Source: Vogesella urethralis
Lineage (GTDB): Bacteria > Pseudomonadota > Gammaproteobacteria > Burkholderiales > Chromobacteriaceae
Assembly (NCBI RefSeq): GCF_007644045.2
Contig: NZ_VMDW02000087.1
Coordinates: 124,001-188,000 of the forward strand
Length of the DNA: 64,000 bases
Direction of reading: 5' to 3'
In this document: positions 1 to 64,000 of the stretch, in pieces
Layout of the letters: each line of letters starts with the position of its first letter
Numbering within the stretch: position 1 is the first letter of the stretch
The notes under the pieces: model-generated
What the model was told of the DNA's origin: nothing
Seen by the model: the letters and a program-made list of their open reading frames with translations, nothing else
Database searches by the model: none
Translations under genes and position numbers: made by a program

Positions 1-708
1 GTACAGCGCAATCTGCTCGGCGTGTTCGCGCTGGTGGCGCAGCGTGCTGCGCAGGTCGGCCTCGCGCTGTTGCTGCTGCACGTTCAACCGCGTCAGTTCA
101 TTGCCGATCCAGTGCGTCAGCAGCGCACCGAACAGCGCGTAACCCAGCGCAAACCACAGCAGGTAGCCGGGCACCACCAGTTGGCCGTCGCCCCACGGCA
201 GCGTCAGGTTGCTGGACAGCTGCCACAGGATGAACACGAACGACAGCAGCTTGGCCACCGCCGACACCAGCGAGCGCAACAGGTCGATGCTGTCGGTCAC
301 CAGCAGGTTCACGTCTTCGGCAATGCGCTGGTCGGGGTTGTCCGGCTCGCCGTGCAGGCCCAGGCGGTAAAAGGCGCGCTCGGCCAGCCAGGCGTCTACC
401 AGCTGGCGCGTCATCGCTTCGCGCCAGCGCAGGATCAGCAGCTTGCGCACCCAGTCAAGCGCCACCGCCACCACCACGGCGGCGCTGATCAGCAGGCAGT
501 AACGGCCCAGCAGCGGGTAGATGCGCGGTGTATCCAGCGCGCCCAGCGCGTCGTAGAAGTCCTTGTTCCAGAAATTGAGCCAGACATTCATCTGCACCAG
601 GATCAGGCCCATGCCGAGGATGGCCAGCAACAGCAGCCAGGCCAGCCAGTTGTGGCGCGAGCGCCAGTACGGGGCGGCCAGTTGCCAGAATTGACGCAGG
701 GTATTCAA
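1..708 (-). CDS. SbmA/YddA-type ABC transporter permease (partial; 3' end beyond window)
   Basis: The minus-strand frame stays open from base 708 to the window edge, giving about 236 residues with no stop. It reads as the membrane domain of the SbmA/BacA-YddA family: an N-terminal hydrophobic segment around residues 20-40, then the stretch QMNVWLNFWNKDFYDAL, typical of this family, then further membrane segments. The ATPase domain expected in YddA-type proteins would lie outside the window. The start is TTG, overlapping the TGA of the upstream peptidase gene, with GGAGA seven bases before it, so translation is coupled. In E. coli yddA and in fusD of Pectobacterium such a transporter sits with a TonB receptor and an M16 protease. 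I infer uptake of a peptide or cofactor released in the periplasm. Confidence 0.8.
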   Translation of the reverse strand, partial: MNTLRQFWQLAAPYWRSRHNWLAWLLLLAILGMGLILVQMNVWLNFWNKDFYDALGALDTPRIYPLLGRYCLLISAAVVVAVALDWVRKLLILRWREAMTRQLVDAWLAERAFYRLGLHGEPDNPDQRIAEDVNLLVTDSIDLLRSLVSAVAKLLSFVFILWQLSSNLTLPWGDGQLVVPGYLLWFALGYALFGALLTHWIGNELTRLNVQQQQREADLRSTLRHQREHAEQIALY

Positions 709-3515
709 GGTTGGGTCTCCATCAGTTTGGGGTCGGGCAGGGTCAGCAACAGGGCCAGGTTGCGGTCCAGCTGCAGCCCGCTGGCCAGCGCGCGCACGCT
801 GGCCGCGTCCAGCGTGGCGGCCAGGTCGGCGCTACGGCTCAGGTAACGGGTGTCGCCGTCGTGGCGGATGCTCAGTTGCAGGCGGTTGAAGCGGCTGTCG
901 TCGTCCGCCTGGCGGGCGGCGGCTTGTTGCCGGCCATACTCCAGCGCCGTTTGCAGATTGGCGTCGTCCAGCACCGCTGCCGGCTGCGCCAGGATGGCGC
1001 GTACGCGCAGCAGCAGCTCGTCCAGCCGTGCCGGGTCGGTACTGAACTGCCATTCGCTTTCCAGACGGTCGGTATCGGGGTTGAGCTTCAGGCTGAACTG
1101 CACGCTGTACACGCCGGCCGCTTCTTCGCGCAGCGAACGGCGCATGGCGGCGTGCAGCGCCCGCCCCAGCGTGGCCACCTGCAGCGCACGCTCGCCCTGC
1201 CACGCCATCGGCACGCTGCCGTAGGCCTGCACCCGCGCTACCGGTTCGCGCGCGATGGCGTGCCGGCTTTCAAAAAAGCCCGGCCGCGGCAACAGCGCGC
1301 TGGCGGTGACGGCGTTTGCGCGGCGCGGTATCGGCGCCAGGTAACGGTTGGCCGCGGCCAGCACGTCGGCCTCGCGGGCGTCGCCGCTGAGGTAGTGGGT
1401 AACCGGGCGCGCCACCAGCTGCTGCCACAGCGCCAGCAAGGCAGCCGGGGTCTGGCGGCGCAGCTCGGCCGGGGTCGGTGCCTGGTCGGCGGCGGTCAGC
1501 GGGTAGCGCAGCTTGCCCAGCGCGGCGTAGGCCTGGCTGGCGGCGCTGCTGTCGCGGCCCAGGCTGTTTTGCTGCAGGCGCAGCAGCGCCGGGTCGATGC
1601 CGGCGTGCAACTGGCGCGTCTGGTAGTAGTGCCACAACGTGGCCAGCTTGTCGGCGGGAACGCTGGCGCTTTGCGTCAGGCGCTGGGTGGTTTGCGCTTG
1701 CGACAGCCCCAGGCTCTGGTGTTGCTCCCAGCGGCGCAGCTGGGCGGCTTGCCAGCCGGCCGGGCCGCTGGCGGCGGCCAACTGGGCGGCCAGTTGCCAC
1801 TGCCAGCCAGTCGCGCCCGGCAGCCGGTAGCCGGCGCCCGATTCCGCCACGTAGCGCAGCTTGCCGTCCTGGTTGGCGCGGTACTGCCACACCAGGCGGT
1901 CGCCGTTGGCCAACTGCCACATCGCCACTTGCTGCGCCTCGTCGCGCCACAGCAGCGTGCTGCTGGCGGCCGGCAGCGCCGGCGGCAGTTCGGGCAGCGG
2001 CACGGGGGCCGGCACCGGCGGCTGCGGTACGGCGGGCAAGGGTTTGGCGGCAATATCAGCCTGCAGTGCCAGCACCTGCTGCGGCGTCGGCAGCGGTACC
2101 GGCTTCAGGCCGGGCGCCAGCATGAACAGCAGGCGGTCGGGGCTTTGCAGCCAGCCGCGCAGGTGGGCGATGACGTCTTCGTTGCGGATGCCGGCCACAA
2201 TGGCTTCCGCCATCGGCCCTTTCTGCGCCGGGTCTTGCAGCACGCGTTCGTCGGCGATGGCGTTTTGCAGCTCTTGCAACCATTTTTGTGCGTCCCAGCC
2301 GGCACTGCTGCGCGGCGTGCGACGTGCCACCGCCAGCAAGTCTTCACGCAGCGCGGTGAGCTTGGCCTCGTCCGGCGCTTGCGCCAGCAGCAGGTGCTGC
2401 AGCTGCAGCAGGTACTGCATGCCGGCGCGGTGCGCGTTGGGCTCTACCGTGGCGGCAAAGCCCAGCGTAAAGGTGGTACCGCCGATAAAGCCTTTGCGCG
2501 CCACCACGCTGCGCACACCGCTTGGCCGCAGCGGCTGGTAACGCACCAGCTCCTGCTTCAGCAGTTTTTCGGCCAGGTTGTCCAGCAGGCGGACGCGGAA
2601 GCCGGCGCTGTCCTGCGCCAGGTCGCTGCGGCTGCGCAGCACCCAGCCTACCTGGCTACTGCGGTTGTCGGCGTCTTGCAGGCGGCCGGTACGCAAGGTG
2701 TTGCCCAGCACCGGGTTGCGGTCGGCACGCTGCGGCAGTACCGCCGCCGGCCGCTCGGCAAACCAGTGGCGGATGCGCGCTTCCACCTGGGCGGCATCGA
2801 CAGCGCCCACCACCAGCAGCGCCATATTGTTGGGCTGGTACCAGCGCTGGTAAAAGCGCTGCAGGCTGGCCGCCGGCTGGGTGCGGATGCTGCGCTCGGT
2901 GCCGATGGTTGGCCGCAACGGCTGCAGGCCGCCCTCGCGCAGCAGCAGGCGGCGCTGCTGCTCCATGCGTTCGCGCGCGCTGAGCTTGCCGCGCCACTCT
3001 TCCAGCACCACGCGGCGCTCCTGCGCCAGGCTAGTGTCGCGGATCAGGGCGTGGCCGGCGATCTGCGACAGCAGGAACAGGCCTTGGTCCCATTGCGCCA
3101 GCTGCGCCTTGCCGGACAGGTTGAGCATGTACAGCGTGCGCTCGGAATTGGTCACCGCGTTGTACTGCACGCCGGGGCGCCAGCCCATGGCGGTCATGCG
3201 CCGCGCAATGCCTTCCGGCACGTCGCGGCTTTCGTGGAACATCATGTGCTCCACCAAATGCGCCACGCCGGACTGCTGTTCGTCTTCTTCCAGCGAGCCG
3301 GCGTGCACCAGCAGCTGGATGCCCAGCGTGTCGGCCGGTTTGCTGGCCGGCACGATGAAATAGCGCAGGCCATTGGGTAGGGTGCCGCGCTGGATGGCCG
3401 GGTCCCAGCGGAACGGCTCCACCGTCGCGGGGGCTGCATGGGCCGGCAACATGGCCGCCATGCCACAGGCGGCCAGCAGGCAAAGCCGGCGCGCCAGAGT
3501 AACAAGATGCTTCAC
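705..3515 (-). CDS. Periplasmic M16 zinc peptidase, PqqL/FusC-like
   Basis: A 936-residue M16-family metallopeptidase, close to the usual length of PqqL and FusC. It starts at GTG with GAGG six bases upstream; a longer frame exists but its first residues look non-coding. Residues 1-27 form a signal peptide ending in AHA, so the enzyme acts in the periplasm. The inverted zinc motif HLVEH is at about residues 86-90, followed by a conserved ERRVVLEEW segment carrying the third ligand; a second, inactive M16 half makes up the C-terminus. It lies 49 bases after the TonB receptor gene and overlaps the ABC transporter gene. By analogy to FusC it probably degrades a protein imported by the receptor. 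The substrate is unknown. Confidence 0.9.
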   Translation of the reverse strand: MKHLVTLARRLCLLAACGMAAMLPAHAAPATVEPFRWDPAIQRGTLPNGLRYFIVPASKPADTLGIQLLVHAGSLEEDEQQSGVAHLVEHMMFHESRDVPEGIARRMTAMGWRPGVQYNAVTNSERTLYMLNLSGKAQLAQWDQGLFLLSQIAGHALIRDTSLAQERRVVLEEWRGKLSARERMEQQRRLLLREGGLQPLRPTIGTERSIRTQPAASLQRFYQRWYQPNNMALLVVGAVDAAQVEARIRHWFAERPAAVLPQRADRNPVLGNTLRTGRLQDADNRSSQVGWVLRSRSDLAQDSAGFRVRLLDNLAEKLLKQELVRYQPLRPSGVRSVVARKGFIGGTTFTLGFAATVEPNAHRAGMQYLLQLQHLLLAQAPDEAKLTALREDLLAVARRTPRSSAGWDAQKWLQELQNAIADERVLQDPAQKGPMAEAIVAGIRNEDVIAHLRGWLQSPDRLLFMLAPGLKPVPLPTPQQVLALQADIAAKPLPAVPQPPVPAPVPLPELPPALPAASSTLLWRDEAQQVAMWQLANGDRLVWQYRANQDGKLRYVAESGAGYRLPGATGWQWQLAAQLAAASGPAGWQAAQLRRWEQHQSLGLSQAQTTQRLTQSASVPADKLATLWHYYQTRQLHAGIDPALLRLQQNSLGRDSSAASQAYAALGKLRYPLTAADQAPTPAELRRQTPAALLALWQQLVARPVTHYLSGDAREADVLAAANRYLAPIPRRANAVTASALLPRPGFFESRHAIAREPVARVQAYGSVPMAWQGERALQVATLGRALHAAMRRSLREEAAGVYSVQFSLKLNPDTDRLESEWQFSTDPARLDELLLRVRAILAQPAAVLDDANLQTALEYGRQQAAARQADDDSRFNRLQLSIRHDGDTRYLSRSADLAATLDAASVRALASGLQLDRNLALLLTLPDPKLMETQP

Positions 3516-3564
3516 GAAAAACCTCGGACAGGAACGGGGGCGGCTAGCGCCGCCCCACTGGGGG

Positions 3565-6396
3565 TCAGAACTGGTAGCCCAGCTCCAGGGTGAAAGTACG
3601 GCCACGCTCGTAGGTGGCGTAGCTGTCGCTGACGCTGAGCATGTTCTTGCGGTTGGTGACGTTCTCGATGCTGAGTTTCACCTGAGCGCGCTGGCTGCCG
3701 CTGATGCGCGGGTTCCATGCGATGACGGTATCCAGCGTCAGCGAACGCGGCAGCGCGGTCTTGCGCCATACGTCCACGGTGCTGCCTTCATAGGTGGTGG
3801 TACCGTCCTGCAGCATCTGCTGGTAGCCATCGCGGATGCGCAGCAGGTTGCTGATGCTGAGGCTGTACGCCGGCAGCGAGGTGATGGCGCCCAGGCGCAG
3901 CGTCCACGGCCGGTTGTAGTTATCGGCCGGCATATCGCTGTAGCGGATGAACTGGCCGTCGTACTGGATGATCTCGTCGGCGGCCTTGTCGCTGCTGTAG
4001 GTGTCGGCGTAGCTGGAATAGTTGCTCTTCACGTCGCTGTTGTTGAACGCCAGCCAGAAGCTGGTGCGGCTATTGCCCAGTCGCCACGGGCTGCGGCCGG
4101 TCCAGCTGAGCGTGAAGTCGCGGGTCTGGCTGCTGCCCTGGTTGGTGAACACATAGCACTGGCTGGACGCGCAGTCGCTCTGCCCGGTGACCAGGCGCTT
4201 GACGATCTGCTGCTTGCCGTCGCGACGGGTCAGCCGCACGTCGAACGGGCCACCGGCCCAGTCCGGTTCCCAGCTGATGCCTAGCGTGGCTTCATCGTCG
4301 TACGGGCTGTCGATGTCGGACAGGCGGTTGGTGGTTTTGGACTGTACCGGGCTGCTCCACACCAGCGAGCTGGTGGTGCGGGTTTGCGTGTACTGCAGGG
4401 TGTGGATCTGGTCCTGCAGCGCGTAGGCCAGCAGCGAGCGGCCGTAGTAACGGTTGGCGCCGGCGTTCAGCGACAGGCCGGGCGCGGCCTGCCAGGTCAG
4501 GCTGCTGCGCGGCGCCAGGTTGAGGTCGCGCGTCAGCGTGTCGTGGTCGGCACGCAGGCCCAGGCGCAGCTGCCAGTCTTGCCAGCGCATCTGGTCGTCG
4601 ATGTAGGCGGCGCTGCTCAGCGCTTCCATCTCGGCACCGCCGGCCTGGTAGGTAATGAGGCGGCGGAAGTACTGGCCGCGCCCCTGCGCCAGGGTGGCGG
4701 TGGCCGAGCAACCCTCGGTATCCACGCTGCCGTCGGCATACTGGCACGACGCCATGGCGCCGCTGGTAGGCAGGTTGGCCGGCGTCAGCCAGTAGCGGGT
4801 GGTGCTCAGGCGTTCGTACTCGGCAGTCTGGTGCTTGAGGTCGATACCGGTGCCGATCTTGTGCGACAGTGCGCCATCACCGGCCAGGTCGAACGACGCG
4901 GCCAACTTGTAGTTGACGGTGCGCAGTGTCTGGTCCACGTCGCCCCACGCCCCTTCCAGGCTGGTGGGGTTGCTTTCGCTGGCATCGCCCCAGTTCTTGG
5001 CGGTAGACCAGCGCCAGGCGCGGTAGTAGTCCACATCGCTGCGGCGCGACTGTTCGTTCTGCATCAGCGACAGCTGCTGGTTCAGCGTGACCTTGCCCAG
5101 CTCGGATACCAGCCGCCCCGACAGCGCGGTACCGCCGCTGCGGATCTGGTAATCGCTGTCTTTGGCGTCGGCGATGAAATAGCCGTTCTCCGACGGCGCG
5201 TAGCTGAAGGTGATGTCGCCGCTGTGCGGGCTGTCTTTGGGCGACCAGTCGGCCTTGATGGCCAGCGAGTCCATGCGCCGGGTCTGGGTCACTTCCTGGC
5301 TGAGCACATTGCTGCTGTTGTCGCTGCTGAAGCGTTTGAGCGGAATCTCCGATTCACGCCGTACCGCCGACACCACCACGCCCCAGTCTTCGCTCGGGCG
5401 GGCTTCCACATTGGCCTTGTACGTCCACTTGCGGTAACGCGGCTGGTTGTCGGCGTCGGACGACTTTTCAAACGCGCTCTGGCGGCGCGGGTCGATGATC
5501 TGCTCGCTCCACGCCGACGAGGTGTAGCCAATGCTGACGCTGCCGCCCAGCGTCTTGCGCGCGCGGCACAGCTCGGCTTCCACCACGCCGCCGGTGAAGC
5601 GGCCGTACTCGGCCGGCACGTTGTTGTCCAGCACGCGGGCATTGCACAGCTGGCTGCTGTCGTAGGCCAGCGCCTGCGCCTGGCCGGGGATGTATTCCGG
5701 GTTGGTGGTGACGATCTTGTTACCCGGGTCCAGGTCGTTGGCGATGGACAGGCCGTCTACCAGCATCTCGTTCTGGTACGGTTTGGCGCCGTGGATGCTG
5801 ATTTCGGCCGGGCTGATTTCGCCGCCGGTGGCCGACGACAGCTGCGCTTCGTCAAACTGGATATTGGGATTGATGCGCAGCTGGCTGGTGAGGTCGCCGT
5901 TGGCCGCCGGCAGCAGCTGCAGCATTTGCTGGTCCAGTTTTTCCGGCGTGCGCAGCAGCGGTGCGGTGACCACCACCGGCGCCAGCGTGGCCGGCTCGCC
6001 CTCGGCCGTACTGGCCGGGCGCAGCACCAGCTGGTAACGCTGGCCGGCTACCGGCTCGGCGCGGTAAGGCGTGGCCGCCAGCAAACGGGCAAACCCCTCG
6101 GCCACGGTGAACTGGCCGCTCAGCGCCGGGCTTTGCCGGCCGGCCAGCCATTGCGCGTCAAACGCCAGAATCACGCCCACGTCGGCCGCGTAACGCGCCA
6201 GCGTGGTGGCCAGCTGGCCGGCGGGCAGCTGTACCGTATGGCGCGTGGCTGCTGCGGCGGCGGTATCGGCCCAGGCGGGGGCCGGGGCGAGCGCGGCCAG
6301 CACGGTGAGTGCCGACAGGCCAAAGCTGAGCTGGCGCAAGGCCTGGCTTAATGGTGTAAGGCGGGGAAGTGCGTGCGATGCAGTAATGTTCTTCAT
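3565..6396 (-). CDS. TonB-dependent receptor with N-terminal STN signalling domain
   Basis: A 943-residue outer-membrane receptor. A long signal peptide (about 1-43, ending PAWA) precedes an STN domain (about 55-125, with LPAGQLATTLARYAADVG), which links FecA-type receptors to a FecR anti-sigma factor. A plug domain follows (from about residue 140, with SIHGAKPYQNEMLVDG), then a 22-strand-type barrel ending in the aromatic residue F of GYQF. Paired cysteines lie in predicted extracellular loops. The gene follows fecR by 97 bases, a gap that holds a Fur-like site and could carry its own promoter. The M16 peptidase next to it suggests a protein or peptide ligand rather than a simple siderophore; this is inference. 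Confidence 0.92.
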   Translation of the reverse strand: MKNITASHALPRLTPLSQALRQLSFGLSALTVLAALAPAPAWADTAAAAATRHTVQLPAGQLATTLARYAADVGVILAFDAQWLAGRQSPALSGQFTVAEGFARLLAATPYRAEPVAGQRYQLVLRPASTAEGEPATLAPVVVTAPLLRTPEKLDQQMLQLLPAANGDLTSQLRINPNIQFDEAQLSSATGGEISPAEISIHGAKPYQNEMLVDGLSIANDLDPGNKIVTTNPEYIPGQAQALAYDSSQLCNARVLDNNVPAEYGRFTGGVVEAELCRARKTLGGSVSIGYTSSAWSEQIIDPRRQSAFEKSSDADNQPRYRKWTYKANVEARPSEDWGVVVSAVRRESEIPLKRFSSDNSSNVLSQEVTQTRRMDSLAIKADWSPKDSPHSGDITFSYAPSENGYFIADAKDSDYQIRSGGTALSGRLVSELGKVTLNQQLSLMQNEQSRRSDVDYYRAWRWSTAKNWGDASESNPTSLEGAWGDVDQTLRTVNYKLAASFDLAGDGALSHKIGTGIDLKHQTAEYERLSTTRYWLTPANLPTSGAMASCQYADGSVDTEGCSATATLAQGRGQYFRRLITYQAGGAEMEALSSAAYIDDQMRWQDWQLRLGLRADHDTLTRDLNLAPRSSLTWQAAPGLSLNAGANRYYGRSLLAYALQDQIHTLQYTQTRTTSSLVWSSPVQSKTTNRLSDIDSPYDDEATLGISWEPDWAGGPFDVRLTRRDGKQQIVKRLVTGQSDCASSQCYVFTNQGSSQTRDFTLSWTGRSPWRLGNSRTSFWLAFNNSDVKSNYSSYADTYSSDKAADEIIQYDGQFIRYSDMPADNYNRPWTLRLGAITSLPAYSLSISNLLRIRDGYQQMLQDGTTTYEGSTVDVWRKTALPRSLTLDTVIAWNPRISGSQRAQVKLSIENVTNRKNMLSVSDSYATYERGRTFTLELGYQF

Positions 6397-6493: not shown

Positions 6494-7438
6494 TCAACGC
6501 AGCGTCAGCAGCGTCCATAACGGGCCACGGCGCACGATCTTCACCGGCAAGGTGGCGGTAATGGCCTGCAGCGAAGCTTGCGGGTTGTCTTCGGAAAACG
6601 CACCGGATACCGGCAAGGCAGCCGCTTGCGGGTCGCACAGCAAGGCGCCGGGATAATGCGGCGCCAACTGCCTGACGACGTCACCCAGGCGGGCATTGAC
6701 CACCACGATGCGGCCGCTGACCCAGTCCGGCGTGGCGGCGTCCGGCGCCTGCGGCAAACGCTGCGCCTCCTCGCCCAGCTCGCCGTGCTCGCCGGCCTGC
6801 AGGATCAAGCCGGCCGCTCCCGACCACGGCTGCAAGCGCACCGCGTGTTGCTGTACCGCCACGCGGGTGCGGTCGGCTGCCAGAGCCACGGTGAAGCGCG
6901 TGCCCAGCGCCGTCACCTGGCCGTGGCGGGTTTCCACCTGCAGCGGCCGATACGGCGTGTGCGGGTCGCTGGCGGTGGTAATGGCCACCTCCCCTTCCAG
7001 CAGCCGGATCAGGCGGCGCTGCTGGTCGTAGCTCACCTGCACCCGCGCCCCGGCACGCAGCACCAGCTGGCTGCCATCGGCCAGCGTCACCCGCTGGCGA
7101 CGGCCGGCGGCAGCATGAAACGACTGCGGTACCACGCTGTGCTGCAGCCGCAGCCAGCCCTGCCAGCCCGCGCCCAGACAGCCCAGCAGCAGCACGCACT
7201 GGCGCAGCGTACGCCGCCGCCCCTGCCGCTGCTGCAACAGCTGGCGGCCCAAGCCCGCCGGCAACGGTTGCAGCCGGTCGGTCAGGCTGGCCAGCTGCTG
7301 CCAGGCCTGTTCGTGCAAAGGGTTGGCCGCACGCCATTGCTGCCAGGCGGCACGGTCGCCATCGCTGGCCTCGCCCGCACTGAACAGCACGTGCCATTCG
7401 GCGGCCTGCCGCAAGATAGCCGGGGTCAGTGTCGCCAT
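6494..7438 (-). CDS. fecR: FecR-family anti-sigma factor / sigma regulator
   Basis: A 314-residue FecR protein. Residues about 10-50 form the cytoplasmic N-terminal domain (DUF4880-like, with AWQQWRAANPLHEQAWQQL). One membrane segment lies near 77-95. The periplasmic FecR domain follows (with VTLADGSQLVLRAGARVQV and VTALGTRFTV) and ends in an STN-like segment. It would hold the adjacent sigma factor inactive and release it when the receptor binds its ligand. The ATG is two bases after the fecI stop, so the two are co-translated. A longer in-frame extension on this strand runs through fecI in another frame and is not real. Confidence 0.9.
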   Translation of the reverse strand: MATLTPAILRQAAEWHVLFSAGEASDGDRAAWQQWRAANPLHEQAWQQLASLTDRLQPLPAGLGRQLLQQRQGRRRTLRQCVLLLGCLGAGWQGWLRLQHSVVPQSFHAAAGRRQRVTLADGSQLVLRAGARVQVSYDQQRRLIRLLEGEVAITTASDPHTPYRPLQVETRHGQVTALGTRFTVALAADRTRVAVQQHAVRLQPWSGAAGLILQAGEHGELGEEAQRLPQAPDAATPDWVSGRIVVVNARLGDVVRQLAPHYPGALLCDPQAAALPVSGAFSEDNPQASLQAITATLPVKIVRRGPLWTLLTLR

Positions 7439-8248: not shown

Positions 8249-8866
8249 ATGCACCCCATGGCACGAGAACGACTGCACACCGACACCCGCGAACACATCC
8301 TGGCCACCGGCGAGGCGCTGATTCATGGCCGCAGCTTTACCGCGATGGGCCTGACCGAACTGCTGAACGAAGCCGGGGTACCGAAGGGGTCGTTTTACCA
8401 TTACTTCAAGTCGAAGGAAGACTTCGGCGTGGCCATGCTGACCCGCTATTTTGCGGTGTACCGCGAGCGTGTCGGCCTGCTGCTGGCCGATGACAGCATC
8501 GGCGATGGCCGGGCCCGGCTGCTGGCCTACTTCCGGCAATGGCTGGACAACCACGCCCGCTGCGAGGCGCACAGCTGCCTGGCGGTAAAACTGGCGGCCG
8601 AGGTGTCCGACCTGTCCGAGCCGATGCGGCTAGCGCTGCACGAAGGCATGGACGCCATCGTGCACAGGTTGGCCGCGTGCATTCGCGCCGGTCAGGCCGA
8701 CGGCAGCATCAAGCCGCAGCTGCCGCCGGACGAAACCGCCTACGCGCTGTACAGCCTGTGGCTGGGCGCCGCGCTGATGCAGAAAACGCAGCACAGCCTG
8801 CTGCCGCTGCAGGCCGCGATGATCCATACCGAAGGCCAGCTGGCGCCCTGCCGCCCGGCAGCCTGA
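8249..8866 (+). CDS. nemR: NemR-like TetR-family repressor
   Basis: A 205-residue TetR regulator with an N-terminal helix-turn-helix (about 28-57, GLTELLNEAGVPKGSFYHYF). The C-terminal ligand domain contains HSCLAVKLAAEVSDLSE, very like the segment around the redox- and electrophile-sensing Cys106 of E. coli NemR; here the cysteines are at about 105 and 110. It stands directly upstream of a nitroreductase and nemA, the classical NemR targets. A second ATG nine bases further in is an alternative start; neither has a clear ribosome site. Confidence 0.85.
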   Translation: MHPMARERLHTDTREHILATGEALIHGRSFTAMGLTELLNEAGVPKGSFYHYFKSKEDFGVAMLTRYFAVYRERVGLLLADDSIGDGRARLLAYFRQWLDNHARCEAHSCLAVKLAAEVSDLSEPMRLALHEGMDAIVHRLAACIRAGQADGSIKPQLPPDETAYALYSLWLGAALMQKTQHSLLPLQAAMIHTEGQLAPCRPAA

Positions 8867-8955: not shown

Positions 8956-9696
8956 ATGAACCACGCGATTGAACAGATGCAGCAACACCGCAGTATCCGC
9001 AGCTACCAGGACAAACCCGTACCGGCCGATGTACTGGACGCGGTGCTGCGCGCCGCCTGGCATGGCCCCACCTCCATCAACGGCCAACAGGTGTCGCTGG
9101 TGGTGGTACAGGATGCCGCCCGCCGTGCGCGCATTGCCGAGATCGCCGGCGGCCAACCGTGGATTGCGCAGGCGCCGGTGTTCATCGCCGTGGTAGCCGA
9201 CTTCTACAAGACCCGCCTGGGCGTAGCCGCCGCCGGTAGCGAGCAGGTCATCCACGACAGCGTGGAAGGCTTTGCCGTGGCCGCCGTGGACGCCGGCATC
9301 ACCCTGGGCAACCTGATGACCGCCGCTCGCGCCGCCGGCCTGGGTGTGGTGCCGATTGGCGGCATCCGCCGCGACCCGGCCGCCATGATCGCGCTGCTGG
9401 GCCTGCCCGAGCTCACCTTCCCGCTGGCCGGCGTGGTGCTGGGTTACAGCGCCGACGACAGCGCCGTGAAGCCGCGCCTGCCGCTGGCGACGTTTGCCCA
9501 TAACGAGCGCTACGACGCTGCCGCCCTGCCCGGCCACATCGCCGCCTACGACCAGACCCTGCAACAGCACTGGCAAAACCTGGGCCGCGCCGACGGCGAG
9601 CCGTGGAGCCAGAGCATTGCCCGCTATTACCAGCAAGTGTATTTCCCGCAAGTGGCCCCGGTAGCACGCGCCCAGGGCTTTGGATTCGACCGCTAA
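8956..9696 (+). CDS. nfsA: NfsA/Frp-type oxygen-insensitive NADPH nitroreductase
   Basis: A 246-residue flavin nitroreductase of the NfsA/Frp branch. The N-terminal RSIRSYQDKPV and the following GPTSINGQQVSLVVV form FMN contacts; GLGVVPIGGIR is typical of NfsA. It would reduce nitro compounds, quinones and similar electrophiles with NADPH in the cytosol. The start is the ATG at 8956, with GGAG six bases before it; an upstream in-frame start is less likely. It is 21 bases ahead of nemA and shares its operator. Confidence 0.88.
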   Translation: MNHAIEQMQQHRSIRSYQDKPVPADVLDAVLRAAWHGPTSINGQQVSLVVVQDAARRARIAEIAGGQPWIAQAPVFIAVVADFYKTRLGVAAAGSEQVIHDSVEGFAVAAVDAGITLGNLMTAARAAGLGVVPIGGIRRDPAAMIALLGLPELTFPLAGVVLGYSADDSAVKPRLPLATFAHNERYDAAALPGHIAAYDQTLQQHWQNLGRADGEPWSQSIARYYQQVYFPQVAPVARAQGFGFDR

Positions 9697-9717: not shown

Positions 9718-10818
9718 ATGCAAGCCGATAAACTGCTGACCCCCGTGCGCCTGGGCGCCGTTACCCTGAACAACCGCGTGCTGATGGCACCGCTGACCCG
9801 CCTGCGCAATACCGAGCCGGGCGACGTGCCCACCGAGCTGGCCATCGCGTACTACCGCCAGCGCGCCGGTGCCGGCCTGATCATCAACGAAGGCACCCAT
9901 ATTTCCCCCACCGCCAAGGGCTACGCCGGCGCGCCGGGCATCTACAGCGAAGCGCAGATCCAGATGTGGCAGCGCGTGAACGACGCCGTGCACGCCGAAG
10001 GCGGCAAAATCGCCATCCAGCTGTGGCACACCGGCCGCATCTCGCACACCAGCCTGCAGCCGGGCGGCGAAGCCCCGGTGGCGCCATCCGCTATTGCGGC
10101 CAACAGCAACACCAATATCCGTGACGAAAACGGCCAGCTGGTGCGCGCCCCGGTATCCACCCCGCGCGCGCTGGAAACCGCCGAAATCGCCGACCTGATC
10201 GAAGACTACCGCCGCGCCACCGATAACGCGCGCCGCGCCGGCTTCGACCTGGTGGAAATCCACGGCGCCCACGGCTACCTGCTGGACCAGTTCCTGTCGC
10301 CGGCGGCCAACCAGCGTACCGACCAGTACGGCGGCAGCGTGGAAAACCGCGCCCGCATCGTGCTGGAAGTGCTGGACGCGGTGATCGCCGAATGGGACGC
10401 CGACCACGTCGGCATCCGCCTGTCGCCGCTGGGCGTGTTCAACGGCCTGTCGGAAACCGACCAGCAAGAGATGGCGCTGTACCTGATCGGCGAAATCGCC
10501 AAGCGCAACATCGCCTTCCTGCACCTGTCGGAGCCGGACTGGGCCGGCGGCCCGGCCTGGAGCGACGACTTCCGCCAGCGCGTGCGTGCCGTTTACCCCG
10601 GCACCATCGTGGCAGCCGGTGGCTACACGCTGGAAAAAGCCGAAAAGCTGATCGGCGCCGGCCTGATCGACGCCGTGGCCTTCGGCCGCAGCTTCATCGC
10701 CAACCCCGACCTGCCGGCACGCCTGGCCGCCGGTGCGCCGCTGAACCCGCCGCGCCCGGAAACCTTCTACGGCGGTGGCGCCGAGGGTTACACCGACTAC
10801 CCGGCCCTGGGCCAGTAA
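9718..10818 (+). CDS. nemA: Old yellow enzyme, N-ethylmaleimide reductase
   Basis: A 366-residue FMN-dependent ene reductase of the NemA branch. MAPLTRLRN near the N-terminus, [11 protein letters not shown], the substrate-binding [16 protein letters not shown] and [10 protein letters not shown] are all family signatures; a C-terminal [12 protein letters not shown] binds FMN phosphate. It reduces activated C=C bonds such as in maleimides, quinones and nitrate esters. Its place after nemR and a nitroreductase matches the E. coli NemR regulon. Confidence 0.93.
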
Positions 10819-10868
10819 GCCCCCGCCCGGCGCTGGCTTGCCGGCAGCGGGCGCATAACGATGACCTT

Positions 10869-42719: not shown

Positions 42720-49663
<6,944 letters not shown>

Positions 49664-53403: not shown

Positions 53404-54639
53404 ATGTCCTTTACCCACCTGGCGCTTGACCCCGCGCTGCAACGCGCACTGGCCGACGCCGGCTTCGATACCGCCACCCCCATCCAGCAAGCCGCCATTC
53501 CGCCGCTGCTGGCCGGCCACGACGTACTGGCCACCGCCCGCACCGGCGCCGGCAAGACCGCCGCCTACTGCCTGCCGCTGCTGCAACGGCACCTGCAGCC
53601 CGGCGCCCGCCGCTGCACGCTGATCCTGCTGCCAACGCGCGAACTGGCACAGCAGGTGGGCGATACGATATGGCAGCTGTCGGCGCACCTGAAACGGCCG
53701 AAGATCGTGGTGGCTTATGGCGGGGTATCGATCAATCCGCAACTGCTGGCGCTGCGCGGCGGTGCCGACTTCATCGTTGCCACGCCGGGCCGCCTGCTGG
53801 ACCTGATAACCAATAACGCCGTGCCGCTGGGCGATATCGGCACGCTGGTGCTGGACGAAGCCGACCGCCTGCTGGCGCTGGGCTTTGCCGACGAGCTGGG
53901 CCGCATCCTGACCTTGCTGCCGGCACAGCGGCAAACGCTGCTGTTTTCGGCCACCTTTGCGGCCAACGTACAAAAGCTGGCCGCCAGCCTGCTGCGCAAC
54001 CCGCAGCGCATTGCCATTGCAGATGAGGCGGCACCGGCCATCACCCAGCGCGCCATCGACATCAACGCCGCCGACCGCCGCGCGGTGCTGCTGACCCTGC
54101 TGCACAGCGGCGACTGGCCGCAGGCACTGGTATTCGTCAACAGCAAGCACGACGCCGCCGAGCTGGCGCAATGGCTACAGCGCGAAGGCGTCCGCGCCGC
54201 CGCGCTGCACGGCGAACTGGCCCAAGGCCGGCGCGAACGGGTACTGGCCAACCTGAAAGACGGCACCTTGCAAGTGCTGGTAGCCACCGACCTGGCTGCA
54301 CGCGGCATCGATATCACCGCGCTGCCGCTGGTGATCAACGCCGAGCTGCCGCGCTCGCCGCAGGACTACACCCACCGCATCGGCCGCACCGGCCGCGCCG
54401 GGCTGGCCGGCACCGCCATCAGCCTGATCGACGCCGACAGCCGTGCCCACTTCCGCCTGATCGAAAAACGGCTGGGGCTGAAGCTGGCACGCGAACAGCT
54501 GGCCGGCTACCCCGCCACTGATACGCCGGCGCCAAGGTTGGCCGCCGCCGACGACAACGGCGGTATCAAAGGCAAACGGATGAGCAAGAAAGACAAGCTG
54601 CGCGCCGCAGCAGCGGCGGCAAACAGCAGCAAGCCCTAA
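53404..54639 (+). CDS. DEAD-box ATP-dependent RNA helicase (RhlE-like)
   Basis: A 411-residue helicase. Q motif FDTATPIQQAAIP; motif I ARTGAGKTAAY; motif II LDEAD; motif III SAT; motif VI HRIGRTGRAG. The short basic tail ends with KGKRMSKKDKLR, suitable for RNA binding. It likely acts in ribosome assembly or mRNA turnover. Its stop overlaps that of the convergent gene by four bases (CTAA). Confidence 0.93.
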   Translation: MSFTHLALDPALQRALADAGFDTATPIQQAAIPPLLAGHDVLATARTGAGKTAAYCLPLLQRHLQPGARRCTLILLPTRELAQQVGDTIWQLSAHLKRPKIVVAYGGVSINPQLLALRGGADFIVATPGRLLDLITNNAVPLGDIGTLVLDEADRLLALGFADELGRILTLLPAQRQTLLFSATFAANVQKLAASLLRNPQRIAIADEAAPAITQRAIDINAADRRAVLLTLLHSGDWPQALVFVNSKHDAAELAQWLQREGVRAAALHGELAQGRRERVLANLKDGTLQVLVATDLAARGIDITALPLVINAELPRSPQDYTHRIGRTGRAGLAGTAISLIDADSRAHFRLIEKRLGLKLAREQLAGYPATDTPAPRLAAADDNGGIKGKRMSKKDKLRAAAAAANSSKP

Positions 54640-58108: not shown

Positions 58109-58279
58109 CGGCTGCTCCTGTTGGCTGGGTTGGCCGCTGCTGTCAGGCTAGGCAATACGCTGCGATCTATCAAGCAGAAACCAACCGAAATATACACATA
58201 TCATTAATTAACTCTATCAAATGATAGTGTATCCACACTATTGCCACGCTGTATCAGATCAAGCTTTACCGCCGCGGCC

Positions 58280-59233
58280 TTACTGCCCCCAGCGCGCCTC
58301 GCGCCAGATCGCCATTTCTTCCTTGTCCAGATACGTCCACGCCACCACGCGGCTGATCTTGTTGCCTTGCGCCATGTCCAGCGTCACCACGCGGCGGGCG
58401 TCGCACATTTCCAGCTCGCGCTGCAGGCCGCGCACGTTGGCCGCCTTGGACACCAGCGAGCTGAACCACGCCACCTGGTGGCCGTAGCTGACGCTCTCGC
58501 GCGCCATGGTGGCCAGAAACACCTCTTCGCCGCCGTCGCACCACAGCTCGTGGTGGCGGCCGCCAAAGTTCAGTTCCACATTGCCCATGCGCTGGCCGGT
58601 GAGGTTGGCCACCTTGCGGCGCGCGGCGGCGTCGGCTTCGCTGGCCGAGCCGTGGAACGGCGGGTTGCAGATGGTGAGGTCGAAGCGGTCGTCGCGCTTG
58701 ATGATACCGTCGAAGATGCTGGCAGGCGTGGTCTGCTGGCGCAGCTTCAGCCCGCTCTTGAGCTGCGGGTTGGCGTCCACGATCAGGCGCGCCATGCGCA
58801 GCGCGTCGGCGTCGATGTCGCTGCCGACAAAGCGCCAGCCGTACACGTGGCGGCCGATGATCGGGTAGATGCAGTTAGCGCCCACGCCCACGTCCAGCAC
58901 GGTGGCGCGTTTGGGGATGGTGCCCTGGTTGCTCTTGGCCAGCAGGTCGGCCGCGTGGTGCAGGTAGTCGGCGCGGCCGGGTACCGGCGGGCACAGGTAG
59001 CCGGGCGGAATGTCCCAGTACACCACGCCGTAGTGGTGCATCAGCAGCGCACGGTTCAGCGCTTTTACCGCCGCCGGGTTGTGGAAGTCCACGGTCTCGA
59101 TGCCGTGCTCGTTGTGGCGCACGTACTCGGCCAGCTCGGGGTTGGCCGCAATCAGCGCGGCAAAGTCGTAACGGTCACGGTGCAGGCTGCGAAAGTGCAG
59201 GCCGCTTTTGGGGGCGTCGGAAGAATGGCTCAT
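58280..59233 (-). CDS. rlmF: 23S rRNA (adenine(1618)-N6)-methyltransferase
   Basis: A 317-residue SAM-dependent methyltransferase of the RlmF family. The SAM site is LDVGVGANCIYPIIG and the catalytic motif is ICNPPFHGS. The N-terminal LHPRNRH-like segment reads LHFRSLHRDRYDF here. It should methylate A1618 of 23S rRNA (E. coli numbering). Confidence 0.92.
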   Translation of the reverse strand: MSHSSDAPKSGLHFRSLHRDRYDFAALIAANPELAEYVRHNEHGIETVDFHNPAAVKALNRALLMHHYGVVYWDIPPGYLCPPVPGRADYLHHAADLLAKSNQGTIPKRATVLDVGVGANCIYPIIGRHVYGWRFVGSDIDADALRMARLIVDANPQLKSGLKLRQQTTPASIFDGIIKRDDRFDLTICNPPFHGSASEADAAARRKVANLTGQRMGNVELNFGGRHHELWCDGGEEVFLATMARESVSYGHQVAWFSSLVSKAANVRGLQRELEMCDARRVVTLDMAQGNKISRVVAWTYLDKEEMAIWREARWGQ

Positions 59234-59374: not shown

Positions 59375-60544
59375 ATGCTGGCTGACCTGTGGCGCCTGAT
59401 GGTGGCGCTGTGCGACGTGCGGGCCCTGGCCCGCTTCCTCACCGGCCGCCCGCCGGTGGACGTGGTGTTCATTACCAACCTGCGCGACGAGGCCGAACGG
59501 CAGCGCTTCTTTGGCCGCCGCGTACCGCGCCTGGGCCACGCCAACGGCCCGCGCATCTACCTGCGTGGGGTGGCCGGCCGCGTGCGCGGCATTTTTGTCA
59601 CTGCCGAAGAGATGCTGACCCGCGACGGCCGCCGCCTGGCCAAGGCGCAGTTCATCGCCGCCACCGAGTGGGCCGAGCAACACGGCGCACGCGTTATCCT
59701 GCTGGCGGCGTCCACCAAGCGGCTGTTCGGCCGCGACGGCGCCGAGCTGAAAGCGCGCTTTCCGCACCTGCTGTTCACCATCGGCGACAACGGCACCGCC
59801 AACATGCTGCTGGCCGACGTGTTCCGGGCGCTGCAAACGCACGCCATCGCCCCCGGCCGTGGCCGCGTGCTGGTGATCGGCCCTTACGGCATTCTGGGCT
59901 CGGCCATCCTGCAGCCGCTGCGCGACGCCGGCTACGAGGTGGTGGGCTATGGCGGCAACGCCAGCGCGCTGGCCGAGGTGCAGGCAGAACACGGCATTGC
60001 CGTACACACCCGCATCGCCGACATCGGCCAGGTAGACGCGGTGGTGGCTTGTACCCATAGCCAGTCGGCCAAGCTGCAGGCCGAAGACGTAGCCAGCCTG
60101 AGCCGGCCGGGCCGGCGCCTGGTGGTGGTGGACGTGGCAGAGCCGGCCAACCTGGACATCGAGCAATACGCCCGCTGCCGTACCCGCGTCATCCGCCAGG
60201 ACGCCGGCAACGCCTACTCGGCGCAGCTGCACTACGTGCTGGGCGGGCTATCGTGGCGGCTGCTGATGCTGTCGCGCGGCGTGGTGTTCGGCTGCTTTGG
60301 CGAGGCGCTGGCGCTGCATTACAACATCCACACCCTGGGCGTCAGCTGGCTGGCCGGGCGCGACTGGTTCAAGGTCACTGCGGCCAACCGCCAATGCATC
60401 GACAGCGCCTTCGAGCACATCGGCCTCGGCCTGCCAGCGCCGCGCTGTTTCGGTCAGCCGGTGGCTACCTCGCCTGCCGCCAGCGGCAGCACCACGGCAA
60501 ACACCGCCCCGCGGCCGGGCGTGGAGCGTACCTCCAGCGTGTAA
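59375..60544 (+). CDS. NAD(P)-binding protein related to acyl-ACP reductase / predicted amino-acid dehydrogenases
   Basis: A 389-residue protein. The first 150 residues are specific to this family (VFITNLRDEAERQRFFGRRVPR); a Rossmann fold follows with VLVIGPYGILGSAILQPL at about 168-185. It resembles aldehyde-forming acyl-ACP reductases and COG5322 proteins, but the active Cys is not clear. GGAG lies six bases before the ATG. Its last 30 residues (rich in Ser, Thr and Pro) are encoded antisense to the end of the histidine-kinase gene, an overlap of 91 bases, and look like a run-on tail. Confidence 0.65.
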   Translation: MLADLWRLMVALCDVRALARFLTGRPPVDVVFITNLRDEAERQRFFGRRVPRLGHANGPRIYLRGVAGRVRGIFVTAEEMLTRDGRRLAKAQFIAATEWAEQHGARVILLAASTKRLFGRDGAELKARFPHLLFTIGDNGTANMLLADVFRALQTHAIAPGRGRVLVIGPYGILGSAILQPLRDAGYEVVGYGGNASALAEVQAEHGIAVHTRIADIGQVDAVVACTHSQSAKLQAEDVASLSRPGRRLVVVDVAEPANLDIEQYARCRTRVIRQDAGNAYSAQLHYVLGGLSWRLLMLSRGVVFGCFGEALALHYNIHTLGVSWLAGRDWFKVTAANRQCIDSAFEHIGLGLPAPRCFGQPVATSPAASGSTTANTAPRPGVERTSSV

Positions 60545-62325
60545 CCGGCGGCCTCGCACAGCGAACGGGTGATGTGCAGGCCTAGACCGTGGCCGTCGCC
60601 GCCCTGCCCTTCGCCGCGCTGGAACGGCTGCAGCAGCCGCTGCAGCTGGCCGGCCGCCAGGCCCGGGCCGCTGTCGCGCACCTCGATCACCCGTGCGCCG
60701 GCGCGGTAGCGTACCCCCAGCAGCACACTGCCTGCCGGCGTGTAGCGGATGGCGTTCACCAGCAAGTTATCCAGAATGCGCCCCAGCAGCAGCGGCGCCG
60801 CCGGGTACTGCCAGGCGCTGTCGTGACACACCAGACGCAAGCCCTTGGCCGACGCTGCCGGCGCGTGGCGCTGGCAGGCATCGGCCAGCAACGGCCCCAG
60901 CGGCAGGCTGGCCGGCACCGCCTGCAGTTGGCCGCGCGCCTCGGCAATCAGGCTGCCTAACAGCGCCTCGCTGTAATCCAGCGTGCGGTTAACATGCGCC
61001 AATACCGGCGCCGCCTGCGGCAACGGTGCCAACGCGCCCACCGCCAGCCGCAACGACGCCAGCGGCTGCGACAGGTCGTGGCTGGTGGCGGCAAGCTGCA
61101 GCTGGCTGGCGCGCACCTGTTGTTGCGCGGCGGCGGTGGCGGCCTCGGCCTGCGCCAGCTGCCACGCTTCCTGCTCGTGGCGACGGCGGCTGTCAGCCAC
61201 GCTGCGATGCAGCAGCTGCACCTTGCGCGCCAGCGCCACGGCAAAGCACAAAGCCTCGGCGGCATAGCCCAGCTTGGGCAGCACGAACGGCGACCACGGC
61301 AGCGGCAGGCCGCTGAGCATCAGCCCGAACAGCACGTTGGACAGCAACACGTTCAGCAGCGCACCGGCCAGAAACGGCGCCGCCAGCGGCGAACCGCGCC
61401 GGCCGTAATAAGCGCCGGTGTAGACGATCAACCCCAGGTAAGCCAGCGCCGACAGCAACGGCGGCCACACCCAGTCAGCCTGCAGGTAAGCCACCGCGGC
61501 CAACGGCAGCGAGGCCAGCTGCAACAGATAGGCGTGGTACAAGCGGCGGTGGCTGTACGCCACGCCGAACAGGCTGAGCGCAAACAGCGCTTGCAGCAAC
61601 AGCACTACGCCCATCAGCAACGGTGGCGCCAGCTGGTTCCAGCCGCCGGCCTGCGGCCACAGCCAGGCAAAGGTATAGCCCTCCAGCTGCAACATCATCG
61701 CCATCATCGCCGCCGCCAGTGCCGCGTACAGCGCCAGCGTGCGCTCGCCGGCCAGCAGGTATTGCAGCAACGCAAACACCAGCAGCGCCAGCAATACCCC
61801 CAGTTGCAAGCCGTTCAGCAGGTTGCCGTCGGCCAGGCTGGCCTGCCATTGCCAGCGCGGTTCGATCGCCAGCTGCAGCGGGGTATTGCCGTGGGTGCGA
61901 TAGCGCAGCAACAGGCTGTCGCCAGCCTGCAGCGTGTCGGGCAACGGCAACGCCAGCATGCGCGCCGGCAACGGCCGTGCCGCGTACGAGGCGCCAGCCG
62001 GCAGATTGGCCAGTGCCGTCACCCGGCCGTTGGCCGCGCGGTGCCACAGCTGGACAAAACGCAGGTCCGGCACGCCCAACACCAGCACGCGCTGCGGCCC
62101 GGCCTCGGCCGCGCTAACCGGCCGCCACGCCCAGTCGGCCGCCGCCGTGCGCCACGGTGCCGGCGGCTGCGCTGGCCAGTGGGCCGCTTGCTGCCAGGCC
62201 TGGCTAACGCCCAGTTGGCCGCTGTCGTCCTGCCAGTAACGTGGCTGCGCCCATAGCGGCAGGCACCACAGCAGCACTAGCAACAGGGCGCCGAGGCTGC
62301 CTACAATGCTCCGCGTTGATTTCAT
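60454..62325 (-). CDS. Sensor histidine kinase with 7TM-DISM domain
   Basis: A 623-residue membrane kinase. Signal or first segment at about 8-26, a periplasmic 7TMR-DISM extracellular domain (about 27-165), seven membrane segments (about 170-355), a coiled coil, a HisKA-like domain with SHDLSQPLASL (phospho-His), and HATPase with DNLLVNAIRYTP and GLGLHITRSL. Its response regulator is encoded divergently 15 bases away. Confidence 0.9.
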   Translation of the reverse strand: MKSTRSIVGSLGALLLVLLWCLPLWAQPRYWQDDSGQLGVSQAWQQAAHWPAQPPAPWRTAAADWAWRPVSAAEAGPQRVLVLGVPDLRFVQLWHRAANGRVTALANLPAGASYAARPLPARMLALPLPDTLQAGDSLLLRYRTHGNTPLQLAIEPRWQWQASLADGNLLNGLQLGVLLALLVFALLQYLLAGERTLALYAALAAAMMAMMLQLEGYTFAWLWPQAGGWNQLAPPLLMGVVLLLQALFALSLFGVAYSHRRLYHAYLLQLASLPLAAVAYLQADWVWPPLLSALAYLGLIVYTGAYYGRRGSPLAAPFLAGALLNVLLSNVLFGLMLSGLPLPWSPFVLPKLGYAAEALCFAVALARKVQLLHRSVADSRRRHEQEAWQLAQAEAATAAAQQQVRASQLQLAATSHDLSQPLASLRLAVGALAPLPQAAPVLAHVNRTLDYSEALLGSLIAEARGQLQAVPASLPLGPLLADACQRHAPAASAKGLRLVCHDSAWQYPAAPLLLGRILDNLLVNAIRYTPAGSVLLGVRYRAGARVIEVRDSGPGLAAGQLQRLLQPFQRGEGQGGDGHGLGLHITRSLCEAAGYTLEVRSTPGRGAVFAVVLPLAAGEVATG

Positions 62326-62340: not shown

Positions 62341-62952
62341 ATGCGTTCAGACGTGATCATAGCCGACGACCACACCATTTTTCGCGACGGGCTGAAGTTG
62401 TTGCTGGGGATGCAGGCCGAGTACCGGGTGGTGGCCGAGTGCGGGGCGCTGGACGCGCTGCTGCCGCTGGTGCAGCAGCATCAGCCGCAACTGGTGCTGA
62501 TGGATTACAACATGCCCGGCGGCGATGCGCTGGCCACGCTGCACTACCTGCGCCAGCGCTACCCGGCGCTGCGGCTGGTGGTGCTGACCGCCGAACGCGG
62601 CGGCCAACTGCTGGCCCAGGTGCAGCAAGCCGGCGCCGACGGCCTGCTGCTGAAGGAAGGCAGCGCCGCCGACGTGCTGGGCGCGCTACAGCGGGTACTG
62701 GCCGGCCAGCGCGTGATCAGCCCGGCAGCCAGCGCGCTGATGCAGGACAGCCAGGTAGCGCTGACCGCCCGCGAGTACCAGGTGCTGCACCTGATCTGCC
62801 AGGGTTGGCCGCACGCCGACATCGCCGCGCATTTTTCGCTGTCGGTACGCACCGTGGACAAACACCGCGAAAACCTGCAACGCAAACTGGGCGCCAGCAA
62901 CGCGGTGCAGCTGATCAACCGCGCCCGCGAACTGCGCCTGTTCGGCGACTGA
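62341..62952 (+). CDS. NarL/LuxR-family response regulator
   Basis: A 203-residue regulator. The receiver domain has acid pocket IIADDHTIF, phospho-Asp in LVLMDYNMPGG and Lys in LLLKEGSA. The LuxR-type helix-turn-helix lies at about 140-198 (TAREYQVLHLICQGWPHADIAAHF). It pairs with the divergent 7TM-DISM kinase. Confidence 0.93.
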   Translation: MRSDVIIADDHTIFRDGLKLLLGMQAEYRVVAECGALDALLPLVQQHQPQLVLMDYNMPGGDALATLHYLRQRYPALRLVVLTAERGGQLLAQVQQAGADGLLLKEGSAADVLGALQRVLAGQRVISPAASALMQDSQVALTAREYQVLHLICQGWPHADIAAHFSLSVRTVDKHRENLQRKLGASNAVQLINRARELRLFGD

Positions 62953-63602: not shown

Positions 63603-63633
63603 TTGTAACCACACCACCCCAAGGAGTCTTGCC

Positions 63634-64000
63634 ATGTTTCCATTACGCCTCCCTGCCTCCCGCGCCCCGGCCGCGCCAGACGGCCGTTTTGTGGCCGCCA
63701 GTTTTGCCGGCGCCGCGCTGGCCATCGGCGCCTGCGGCTTGCTTAGCCAGTACAGCGGCAGCCCGTGGTTGATGGCCCCGTTCGGCGCCAGTTGCGTGCT
63801 GGTTTTCGGCCTGCCGGACAGCCCGCTGGCGCAGCCGCGTCATGTGGTGGGCGGGCACTTGCTGGCAGCCCTCAGCGGCCTGCTATGGCTGTGGCTGGCC
63901 GGCCCGGTGTGGTGGAGCGCCGCACTGGCGGTGGCCTTGGCGCTGGCCTTGATGCAACTAGCGCGTGCCGTGCACCCACCCGCCGGCGCCACCCCGCTGG
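63634..64000 (+). CDS. HPP-family membrane protein (partial, continues beyond window)
   Basis: The first 122 residues of an HPP-family protein; the frame is open at the window end. Membrane segments alternate with GSPWLMAPFGASCVLVFG and the HPPAGATPL motif that names the family. Members are implicated in nitrite transport in some organisms; function here is unknown. AAGGAG precedes the ATG by seven bases. Confidence 0.88.
   Translation, partial: MFPLRLPASRAPAAPDGRFVAASFAGAALAIGACGLLSQYSGSPWLMAPFGASCVLVFGLPDSPLAQPRHVVGGHLLAALSGLLWLWLAGPVWWSAALAVALALALMQLARAVHPPAGATPL

Follow-up and report, generated by a model that had tools for sequence, protein, structure and literature searches.

Uptake words of other families and the Vogesella window

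Two families of bacteria, and no others, are named as carrying uptake words in the accessible part of PMC12616744. The same part names the pilin ComP as the reader of the DNA uptake sequence (DUS), gives the pilin PpdA as the predicted reader of the Haemophilus uptake signal sequence (USS) and reports that inverted repeats of the USS act as terminators; there, as in the accessible part of PMC8897410, the pilin FimT of Legionella is described as binding DNA. In the accessible part of a 2013 survey (PMC3630211), five genomes (two of Chromobacterium and those of Laribacter, Lutiella and Pseudogulbenkiania) are without obvious DUS, and C. violaceum is without a ComP detectable by BLAST. Here we analysed a stretch of 64 kb of Vogesella urethralis DNA (the window; positions 124,001 to 188,000 of contig NZ_VMDW02000087.1), in which the nine-base word GCGGCCAAC is found in 61 exact copies on both strands. 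This word is very probably a DNA uptake sequence, whichever pilin reads it, and our comparisons make it likely that the Chromobacterium-Vogesella family has a ComP-type uptake-word system in which ComP is the reader. No report of such a system in this family was found in the literature searched, most subscription journals and bioRxiv lying outside its coverage, and the core CGGCCAAC together with 'uptake sequence' led to a sole paper, PMC3868556, in the accessible part of which it stands inside a cloning primer. Genomes are denoted below by G numbers, G000 being the V. urethralis genome that holds the window (4,028,666 bases), and genus groups by g numbers (on the matching counts given below, we equate g1 with Vogesella, g3 with Chromobacterium and g8 with Paludibacterium).

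For the DUS/ComP system of Neisseriaceae, the AT-, AG-, muc-, king-, king3-, sim-, eik- and wadDUS were compared. Like these, the word described here reaches thousands of copies per genome, far above Markov expectation, lies on both strands and in no single frame, varies in genus dialects around a constant core, forms inverted pairs between genes as well as overlapping dyads, and is accompanied by a gene for a minor pilin that, judged from sequence, is orthologous to ComP. Unlike the DUS, it belongs to a different family, and at +6 to +8, where all eight DUS dialects have CTG, the dialects found here have CCG; the words are therefore not filed as DUS dialects. At position +10, which is an A in the DUS, five Vogesella genomes most often have A (46% of sites in G000, 61-81% in the other four); A also prevails in G037, G038, G045, G048 and G010 (68-97%), and G stands there in 90% of the sites of G034. 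Turned to the orientation of the DUS, the words read AGGTTGGCCGAA (the TTCGGCCAACCT dialect of G037 and genomes like it), AGGTTGGCCGAG (g5) and AGGTTGGCCGCA (Vogesella). The first agrees in register with AG-simDUS and AG-mucDUS at 9 of 12 letters, which is only suggestive, as 40 of 3,000 letter shuffles reach an equal match.

The USS of Pasteurellaceae (AAGTGCGGT, ACAAGCGGT) is likewise an abundant uptake word often found in inverted repeats, and its extended form in Haemophilus agrees with the Vogesella word at 9 of 12 letters (22 of 3,000 shuffles do as well); the DUS and USS shuffle tests were both chosen after the words were known, and the resemblance is modest for both. The GCGG core of the USS occurs in Vogesella only, the other word-bearing genomes sampled having TCGG. 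A logo of 392 sites displays none of the downstream AT-rich segments of the USS, and the host belongs to a different class of bacteria. The known dialects are rare in a 464-kb sample of G000 (0-11 copies each; exact Hin-USS 0, Apl-USS 6). The initial annotation, made from the letters of the window, was right that the word differs from the known dialects: it coincides with none of the eight DUS dialects and with neither of the two USS types compared.

A word in excess throughout the genome

That annotation had counted by eye about fifty copies in the window, with one or two expected by chance. The effect is larger than claimed: the 61 copies compare with a mean of 2.75 in dinucleotide shuffles (the largest of 100 gave 8, and none reached 61), and GCGGCCAAC ranks first by Markov z-score among the 9-mers of the window (6.2 expected, order 4). 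It is also the top 9-mer of the 464-kb sample of G000, on which the k-mer rankings are based, with 392 copies against 38.5 (order 4) or 74.8 (order 5) expected. Fixed words were counted genome-wide. The whole of G000 has 3,461 copies of GCGGCCAAC (1,716 and 1,745 by strand) and 86 of the reversed control (44 and 42), so that the count is not at the level of codon use and instead stands about 40 times above that of the reversed word. For the 12-mer GCGGCCAACCTT the figures are 504 (259 and 245) and 0. Eight such 12-mers had been placed in the window; all eight positions are exact, and the window holds no further ones. In the logo of the 392 G000 sites, the flanks are near background beyond about +12, and copies in G000 are spaced 1.1 kb apart on average with a coefficient of variation of 0.92.

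Copies are not bound to one reading frame or strand

For frame and intergenic counts, genes were called with a simple purpose-made finder. In the window, 11 of the 61 copies are intergenic and the other 50 fall in all six frames (20/9/3 on the same strand as the gene, 3/3/12 on the opposite one). In the G000 sample 88 of 392 copies are intergenic against 43.9 expected, which amounts to the intergenic enrichment, here twofold, that the initial annotation had proposed to look for; the enrichment ranges from 1.24 to 4.60 across the ten genomes counted. By frame, the 304 copies of G000 that lie in genes divide into 118/32/10 (same strand) and 50/12/82 (opposite), and synonymous-codon shuffles, in which the proteins are kept, give means of 19.4/6.5/0.0 and 2.6/1.3/8.9. 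Each of the six frames exceeds the largest of 50 shuffles. The enrichment is hence in all frames and not in a single one, and the earlier claim that selection is on DNA rather than on protein holds in G000, as does the remark that TTG is disfavoured (9.2% of Leu codons, against 80% for CTG, in 464 kb). All six frames are filled as well in smaller samples of G060, G049, G053 and G045.

At places that align with other Vogesella genomes, 22 of 56 copies of the word are retained, compared with 170 of 850 copies of 400 permuted words (Fisher p 0.0019, from 25 alignments that are not all independent). Judged by eye from translations, the three longest word-free gaps in the sample correspond to a type I restriction island of low GC content, an operon of ribosomal proteins and a stretch resembling a prophage; two of the three touch the edge of a piece.

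Genus dialects across the family

Comparison with related genera, which had also been proposed, revealed genus dialects that share the core CGGCCAAC, namely TGCGGCCAAC, TTCGGCCAAC and CTCGGCCAAC. The word is present in 23 of 61 family genomes (one of them marginal), from members of 7 of 10 genera. The form YKCGGCCAAC is counted 2,164-3,107 times in 13 of 13 Vogesella genomes and 294-2,348 times in ten others, which are G010 of g2 and all nine genomes of g5, g6, g7, g9 and g10. It is near background in the remaining 38 (53-245 copies; reversed controls 23-123), comprising 9 of 10 genomes of g2, 19 of 19 of Chromobacterium, 4 of 4 of g4 and 6 of 6 of Paludibacterium. In a sample of 399 genomes of the order, 13 of them in the family, none of the 386 outside it is high, the highest count noticed being 223. 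Named genomes were scanned for AroB (the best 80 of 588 stretches; the named loci are not all relatives). Whole-genome counts with their controls are identical in Vogesella indigofera DSM 3303 and G052 (1170/1178/19/25), in Paludibacterium purpuratum CECT 8976 and G040 (109/136/51/64) and in Chromobacterium haemolyticum DSM 19808 and G016 (89/117/35/65).

De novo ranking, in samples of 80-100 kb per genome (464 kb for G000), yielded TGCGGCCAAC in five Vogesella genomes, G000 included, CTCGGCCAAC in G034 (g5), and TTCGGCCAAC, often followed by CT or GT, in G037 (g6), G038 (g7), G045 (g9), G048 (g10) and G010 (g2). For g3 (100 kb and a further 21 kb from C. haemolyticum), G002 of g2 (120 kb) and g4 (60 kb), the k-mers ranked highest were, by eye, only tRNA-like or tandem repeats. 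The tandem-type repeat TCTGGCTCT tops the ranking in L099-L103 (G017, Chromobacterium group). The ratio of GCGGCCAACCTT to YKCGGCCAAC divides the Vogesella genomes into two peaks, with G049 and G051-G054 at 0.44-0.45 and the other eight at 0.19-0.20; the former five make up one ComP subclade on a long stem.

Inverted pairs and hairpins

Inverted pairs had been reported in the window at 10869, 11037 and 18300. The first two are perfect. At 10869..10894 lies an intergenic 26-bp palindrome with 13-nt arms (GCCTGCGGCCAAC/GTTGGCCGCAGGC), made of abutting copies at 10873-10881 (+) and 10882-10890 (-), and at 11037..11062 a pair with 12-nt arms and a 2-nt gap, which includes the 12-mer GCGGCCAACCTT at 11047-11058 (-). 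In the intergenic pair at 18300..18322, the word on the + strand (GCGGCCAA) faces a partner that is one base short (TTGGCCGC), with 8-nt arms and a 7-nt gap, and is passed over by our inverted-pair scan, whose minimum arm is 9 nt. In a promoter and terminator scan of window 10001-19000, the rules of which demand a T-run and a loop of small size, the palindromes of the word are not listed, and those in the window are therefore no more than putative terminators.

The pairing that the initial annotation proposed to examine is found among close pairs in G000 and among head-to-head pairs across genomes. At distances of up to 40 nt, G000 has 20 inverted pairs versus 2 direct ones, and 18 of the 20 are intergenic. 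Of the 10 inverted pairs in G034, 9 lie between genes (5 of them where two genes converge), and several form hairpins with T-runs. Head-to-head pairs number 81-138 per whole Vogesella genome (97 in G057), 11-72 in the other word-positive genomes (41 in G038) and 0-2 in the 38 word-negative ones; the reversed control gives 0-2. Eight of the nine word-negative g2 genomes (G001-G008) each have a head-to-head hairpin GTTGGCCGAAACG(T/A)GTCCGGCCAAC or its reverse complement, of the TTCGGCCAAC type (for example G002:C1:2091458-2091482). These hairpins may be fossils of a lost uptake word, and as such support the loss of the word in g2.

A separate observation concerns L027:6800-8113 of G000, where no gene was called: four degenerate 103-nt tandem copies (6800-7201) are followed by two 121-nt copies 727 nt apart and by three inverted word pairs (7324, 7667, 8051). 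An Rfam search of L027:6500-10500 gave no match.

A ComP-type pilin beside a FimT-like pilin

Among the 15 prepilin-type matches in G000, one of 141 aa is encoded downstream of pilP-pilQ-aroK-aroB, and a FimT/GspH-like pilin adjoins it (pilP, pilQ, aroK, aroB and msbA were named by eye). All 13 Vogesella genomes keep the order aroB, tetratricopeptide repeat (TPR) gene, ComP, FimT. Compared with G000, the other 12 are 40-51% identical in ComP and 32-53% in FimT (over the matched stretch) but 74-88% in AroB, and both pilins therefore evolve fast.

The best solved structures for a nine-member profile of the family pilin are the ComPs 2nba, 2m3k and 5hz7 (E 2e-20 to 6e-18), the next pilin following at 2.5e-11; for the PilE paralogue of Vogesella the best match is PilE (4noa), and no ComP appears with an E of 0.01 or less. 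The Pfam model ComP_DUS (PF16732) gives the G000 pilin 35.8 bits against a gathering cut-off of 27.3. It is not specific, with PilE-like paralogues scoring 80.5 and 34.8, and was rejected as sole proof of ComP. In a tree of 77 pilins, the ComPs of the family form one branch (31 rows, 100/99) that groups with the Neisseriaceae ComPs and apart from the PilE-like paralogues (96/96), in an alignment of few columns with several long branches. Its input was the 30 best family loci (57 genomes had a match), the 30 best Neisseriaceae loci (60 of 61 had one) and the pilins of five further G000 loci; seven of 84 rows were dropped by name (FimT/GspH-like, PilW-like, one other pilin and two second major-pilin copies). 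Two rows labelled as paralogues (one of G045, one of L263) fall within the ComP clade, the labels being at fault. Profile, contrast with PilE and tree together identify the ComP-type pilin that the initial annotation had suggested seeking, and on this sequence evidence the family pilin is orthologous to Neisseria ComP.

The conserved segment of these ComPs reads about LLENA.FLERWYxExGxYKxxSxxWPxLP, and in several other genera a ComP homologue is located near other minor pilins. All 23 word-positive genomes have a best ComP-search E of 1.2e-15 or better. Matches to ComEC and DprA in G000 contain no internal stop. As an aside, L142:9651-10639 (G045, g9) encodes two tandem ComP-like pilins that both fall within the ComP clade and may reflect a duplicated reader.

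Weighing the uptake reading

Counts, frames, intergenic excess, pairs, dialects, retention at aligned places, the word-free restriction island and prophage-like stretch, the ComP-type pilin and the ComEC and DprA matches all support the DUS-like interpretation first put forward for the window. Several observations weigh against it or against the role of ComP. Regarding the word itself, only five frames are filled in the samples of G057, G034, G037 and G038 and three in that of G048, and the synonymous control covers G000 alone. There is a slight strand excess in G000 alone (174 vs 218, p 0.03). A ribosomal-protein operon is among the three largest word-free gaps. The G038 sample has no close pair and that of G057 has one. 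Counts are uneven within a genus (868 in G036 vs 2,348 in G037), and the 294 copies of G047, a genome 84% complete, barely exceed the highest background of 245; G047 nevertheless has 11 head-to-head pairs.

Regarding the reader, the G000 ComP taken alone matches 2nba, the ComP of N. subflava, first at E 6e-7 over residues 40-76 only. An AlphaFold model of V. indigofera ComP from the single sequence was too poor to use (predicted local distance difference test score 60.6). The match between dialect and ComP within Vogesella is also a species split. Moreover, relatives of ComP occur in word-negative genomes (in the tree, six of Chromobacterium and one of the Paludibacterium group; also G002 of g2), 2 of 38 word-negative genomes reach E 1.2e-15, and only 4 of 61 genomes are without any match. 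The presence of ComP is therefore no predictor of the word, and the word may be lost with ComP retained.

The alternative that retains most weight, unlikely as we judge it, keeps the uptake word but gives ComP an accessory part, the reader being the FimT/GspH-like pilin next to it or some other protein of the pilus tip. FimT adjoins ComP in every Vogesella genome and is equally divergent, the Legionella FimT binds DNA (PMC8897410, accessible part), and the Vogesella word is close to the extended USS of Haemophilus, for which PpdA is the predicted reader. Against this, the frame beside ComP in Vogesella indigofera (L154:12152-12586, -) encodes a FimT-like protein of only 144 aa compared with 192 aa in G000. 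ComP is moreover the DUS reader named in the accessible part of PMC12616744, and the pilin found here appears orthologous to it. With the PpdA-like model NF007800, 6 of 7 FimT-like pilins match, far below the 158-bit cut-off (G000, 25.3) and along an N-terminal stretch only, and one does not match at all; a PpdA identity for the FimT-like pilin was rejected.

It is very unlikely that the word is a chromosome-handling motif of the KOPS or Chi type, a methylation site or a regulatory site. HIP1 of cyanobacteria, KOPS and Chi are highly iterated short chromosomal words, HIP1 being a palindrome and KOPS and Chi being polar along the replichore. Thousands of copies and a GGCC centre would fit a methylase or an organising protein. 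The word found here is no palindrome, unlike HIP1; its flank differs between genera, copies stand in hairpin pairs, and close genera lack the word. Unlike KOPS and Chi it has no consistent polarity relative to GC skew (318 vs 362 sites in five genomes, p 0.10, in pieces of about 20 kb), and a polar chromosome motif was rejected on this test.

We see even slightly less chance that the word is a relic, built up under past competence and no longer read. In g2 the picture is the one expected after loss, nine of ten genomes being without the word and eight of those nine retaining at least one hairpin of it. The word is abundant, however, in every Vogesella species sampled, and G000 has open frames for ComP, FimT, ComEC and DprA.

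That the word merely follows from codon use or base composition, or belongs to a mobile repeat, has next to no probability: Ala-Ala-Asn is indeed the commonest frame (118 of the 304 genic copies of G000), but synonymous shuffles and reversed-word counts fall far short, which led us to reject codon or composition bias, the flanks beyond about 12 bases are not conserved, which disposes of a mobile repeat, and a single-frame protein repeat was rejected by contrast with a true one, TACGACGCG. The latter is over-represented in L109-L113 (G039, Paludibacterium group), with 36 of 37 copies in one reading frame, and is a protein repeat rather than an uptake word.

Proposed mechanism and its implications

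In the ComP-type uptake system that we favour, ComP would be displayed on the type IV pilus and bind the word, and retraction of the pilus through PilQ would draw in word-bearing DNA. ComEC would then pass one strand inward, and DprA and RecA would recombine it. We infer both the uptake bias and the binding of the word by ComP from the Neisseria system. Because word-bearing DNA would be taken up preferentially, copies would accumulate at permissive places through biased exchange; head-to-head pairs may have been reused as terminators, and the ComP and word of each genus may have drifted together into a dialect.

With slightly more doubt than confidence, one may suppose that uptake words and a ComP reader predate the split between Neisseriaceae and the Chromobacterium-Vogesella family. 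The words of both families would then have diverged from a single ancestor, similar in form to AGGNTGNCYGAA, whose supposedly invariant CTG core drifted to CCG here, and the word would have been lost in Chromobacterium, most of g2, g4 and Paludibacterium. If true, this would overturn the published dating of the DUS after that split and turn the pair of ComP and word into a natural series from which to decode the reading of DNA by a pilin.

With its ComP orthologues and three or more dialects on a different core, a third family would provide an evolutionary series of reader and word pairs. It would open to test both the reading of a DNA word by a pilin and the joint change of reader and genome words. 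For genetic work on Vogesella and its relatives, a practical rule may be suggested: add the word.

Copies and other features in the window

Apart from the copy in the pair at 11037, the 12-mer GCGGCCAACCTT occurs as exact matches on the + strand at 26115..26126, 26524..26535 (intergenic), 32824..32835 and 50870..50881, and on the - strand at 36774..36785 (intergenic), 52263..52274 (intergenic) and 54534..54545.

Other exact copies of GCGGCCAAC are located on the + strand at 1774..1782, 4898..4906, 9149..9157, 10096..10104, 10303..10311, 12343..12351, 13639..13647, 19391..19399 (intergenic), 20395..20403, 20547..20555, 21661..21669, 22161..22169, 23721..23729, 24240..24248, 26864..26872, 27790..27798, 29337..29345, 37197..37205, 37419..37427 (intergenic), 43333..43341, 45427..45435, 46438..46446, 53959..53967, 60380..60388 (intergenic), 61496..61504 and 62600..62608. 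Those on the - strand are at 1347..1355, 2908..2916, 5899..5907, 7322..7330, 8668..8676, 13191..13199, 14235..14243, 14490..14498, 27202..27210, 28358..28366, 28557..28565, 31381..31389, 32701..32709, 39282..39290, 40881..40889, 44796..44804, 49328..49336, 58129..58137 (intergenic), 58436..58444, 59141..59149, 60927..60935, 62029..62037, 62214..62222 and 62804..62812.

Unrelated to the word, a repeat resembling repetitive extragenic palindromic (REP) elements, centred around CTGCACCCATCCTACG, has 8-11 copies of its parts in the 464 kb of G000 (L009-L028 and the window). The window also encodes, at 42690-49667 (+), a 2,325-aa hybrid signalling protein with Ser/Thr kinase, AAA, GAF, PAS, histidine kinase, receiver and Hpt domains.

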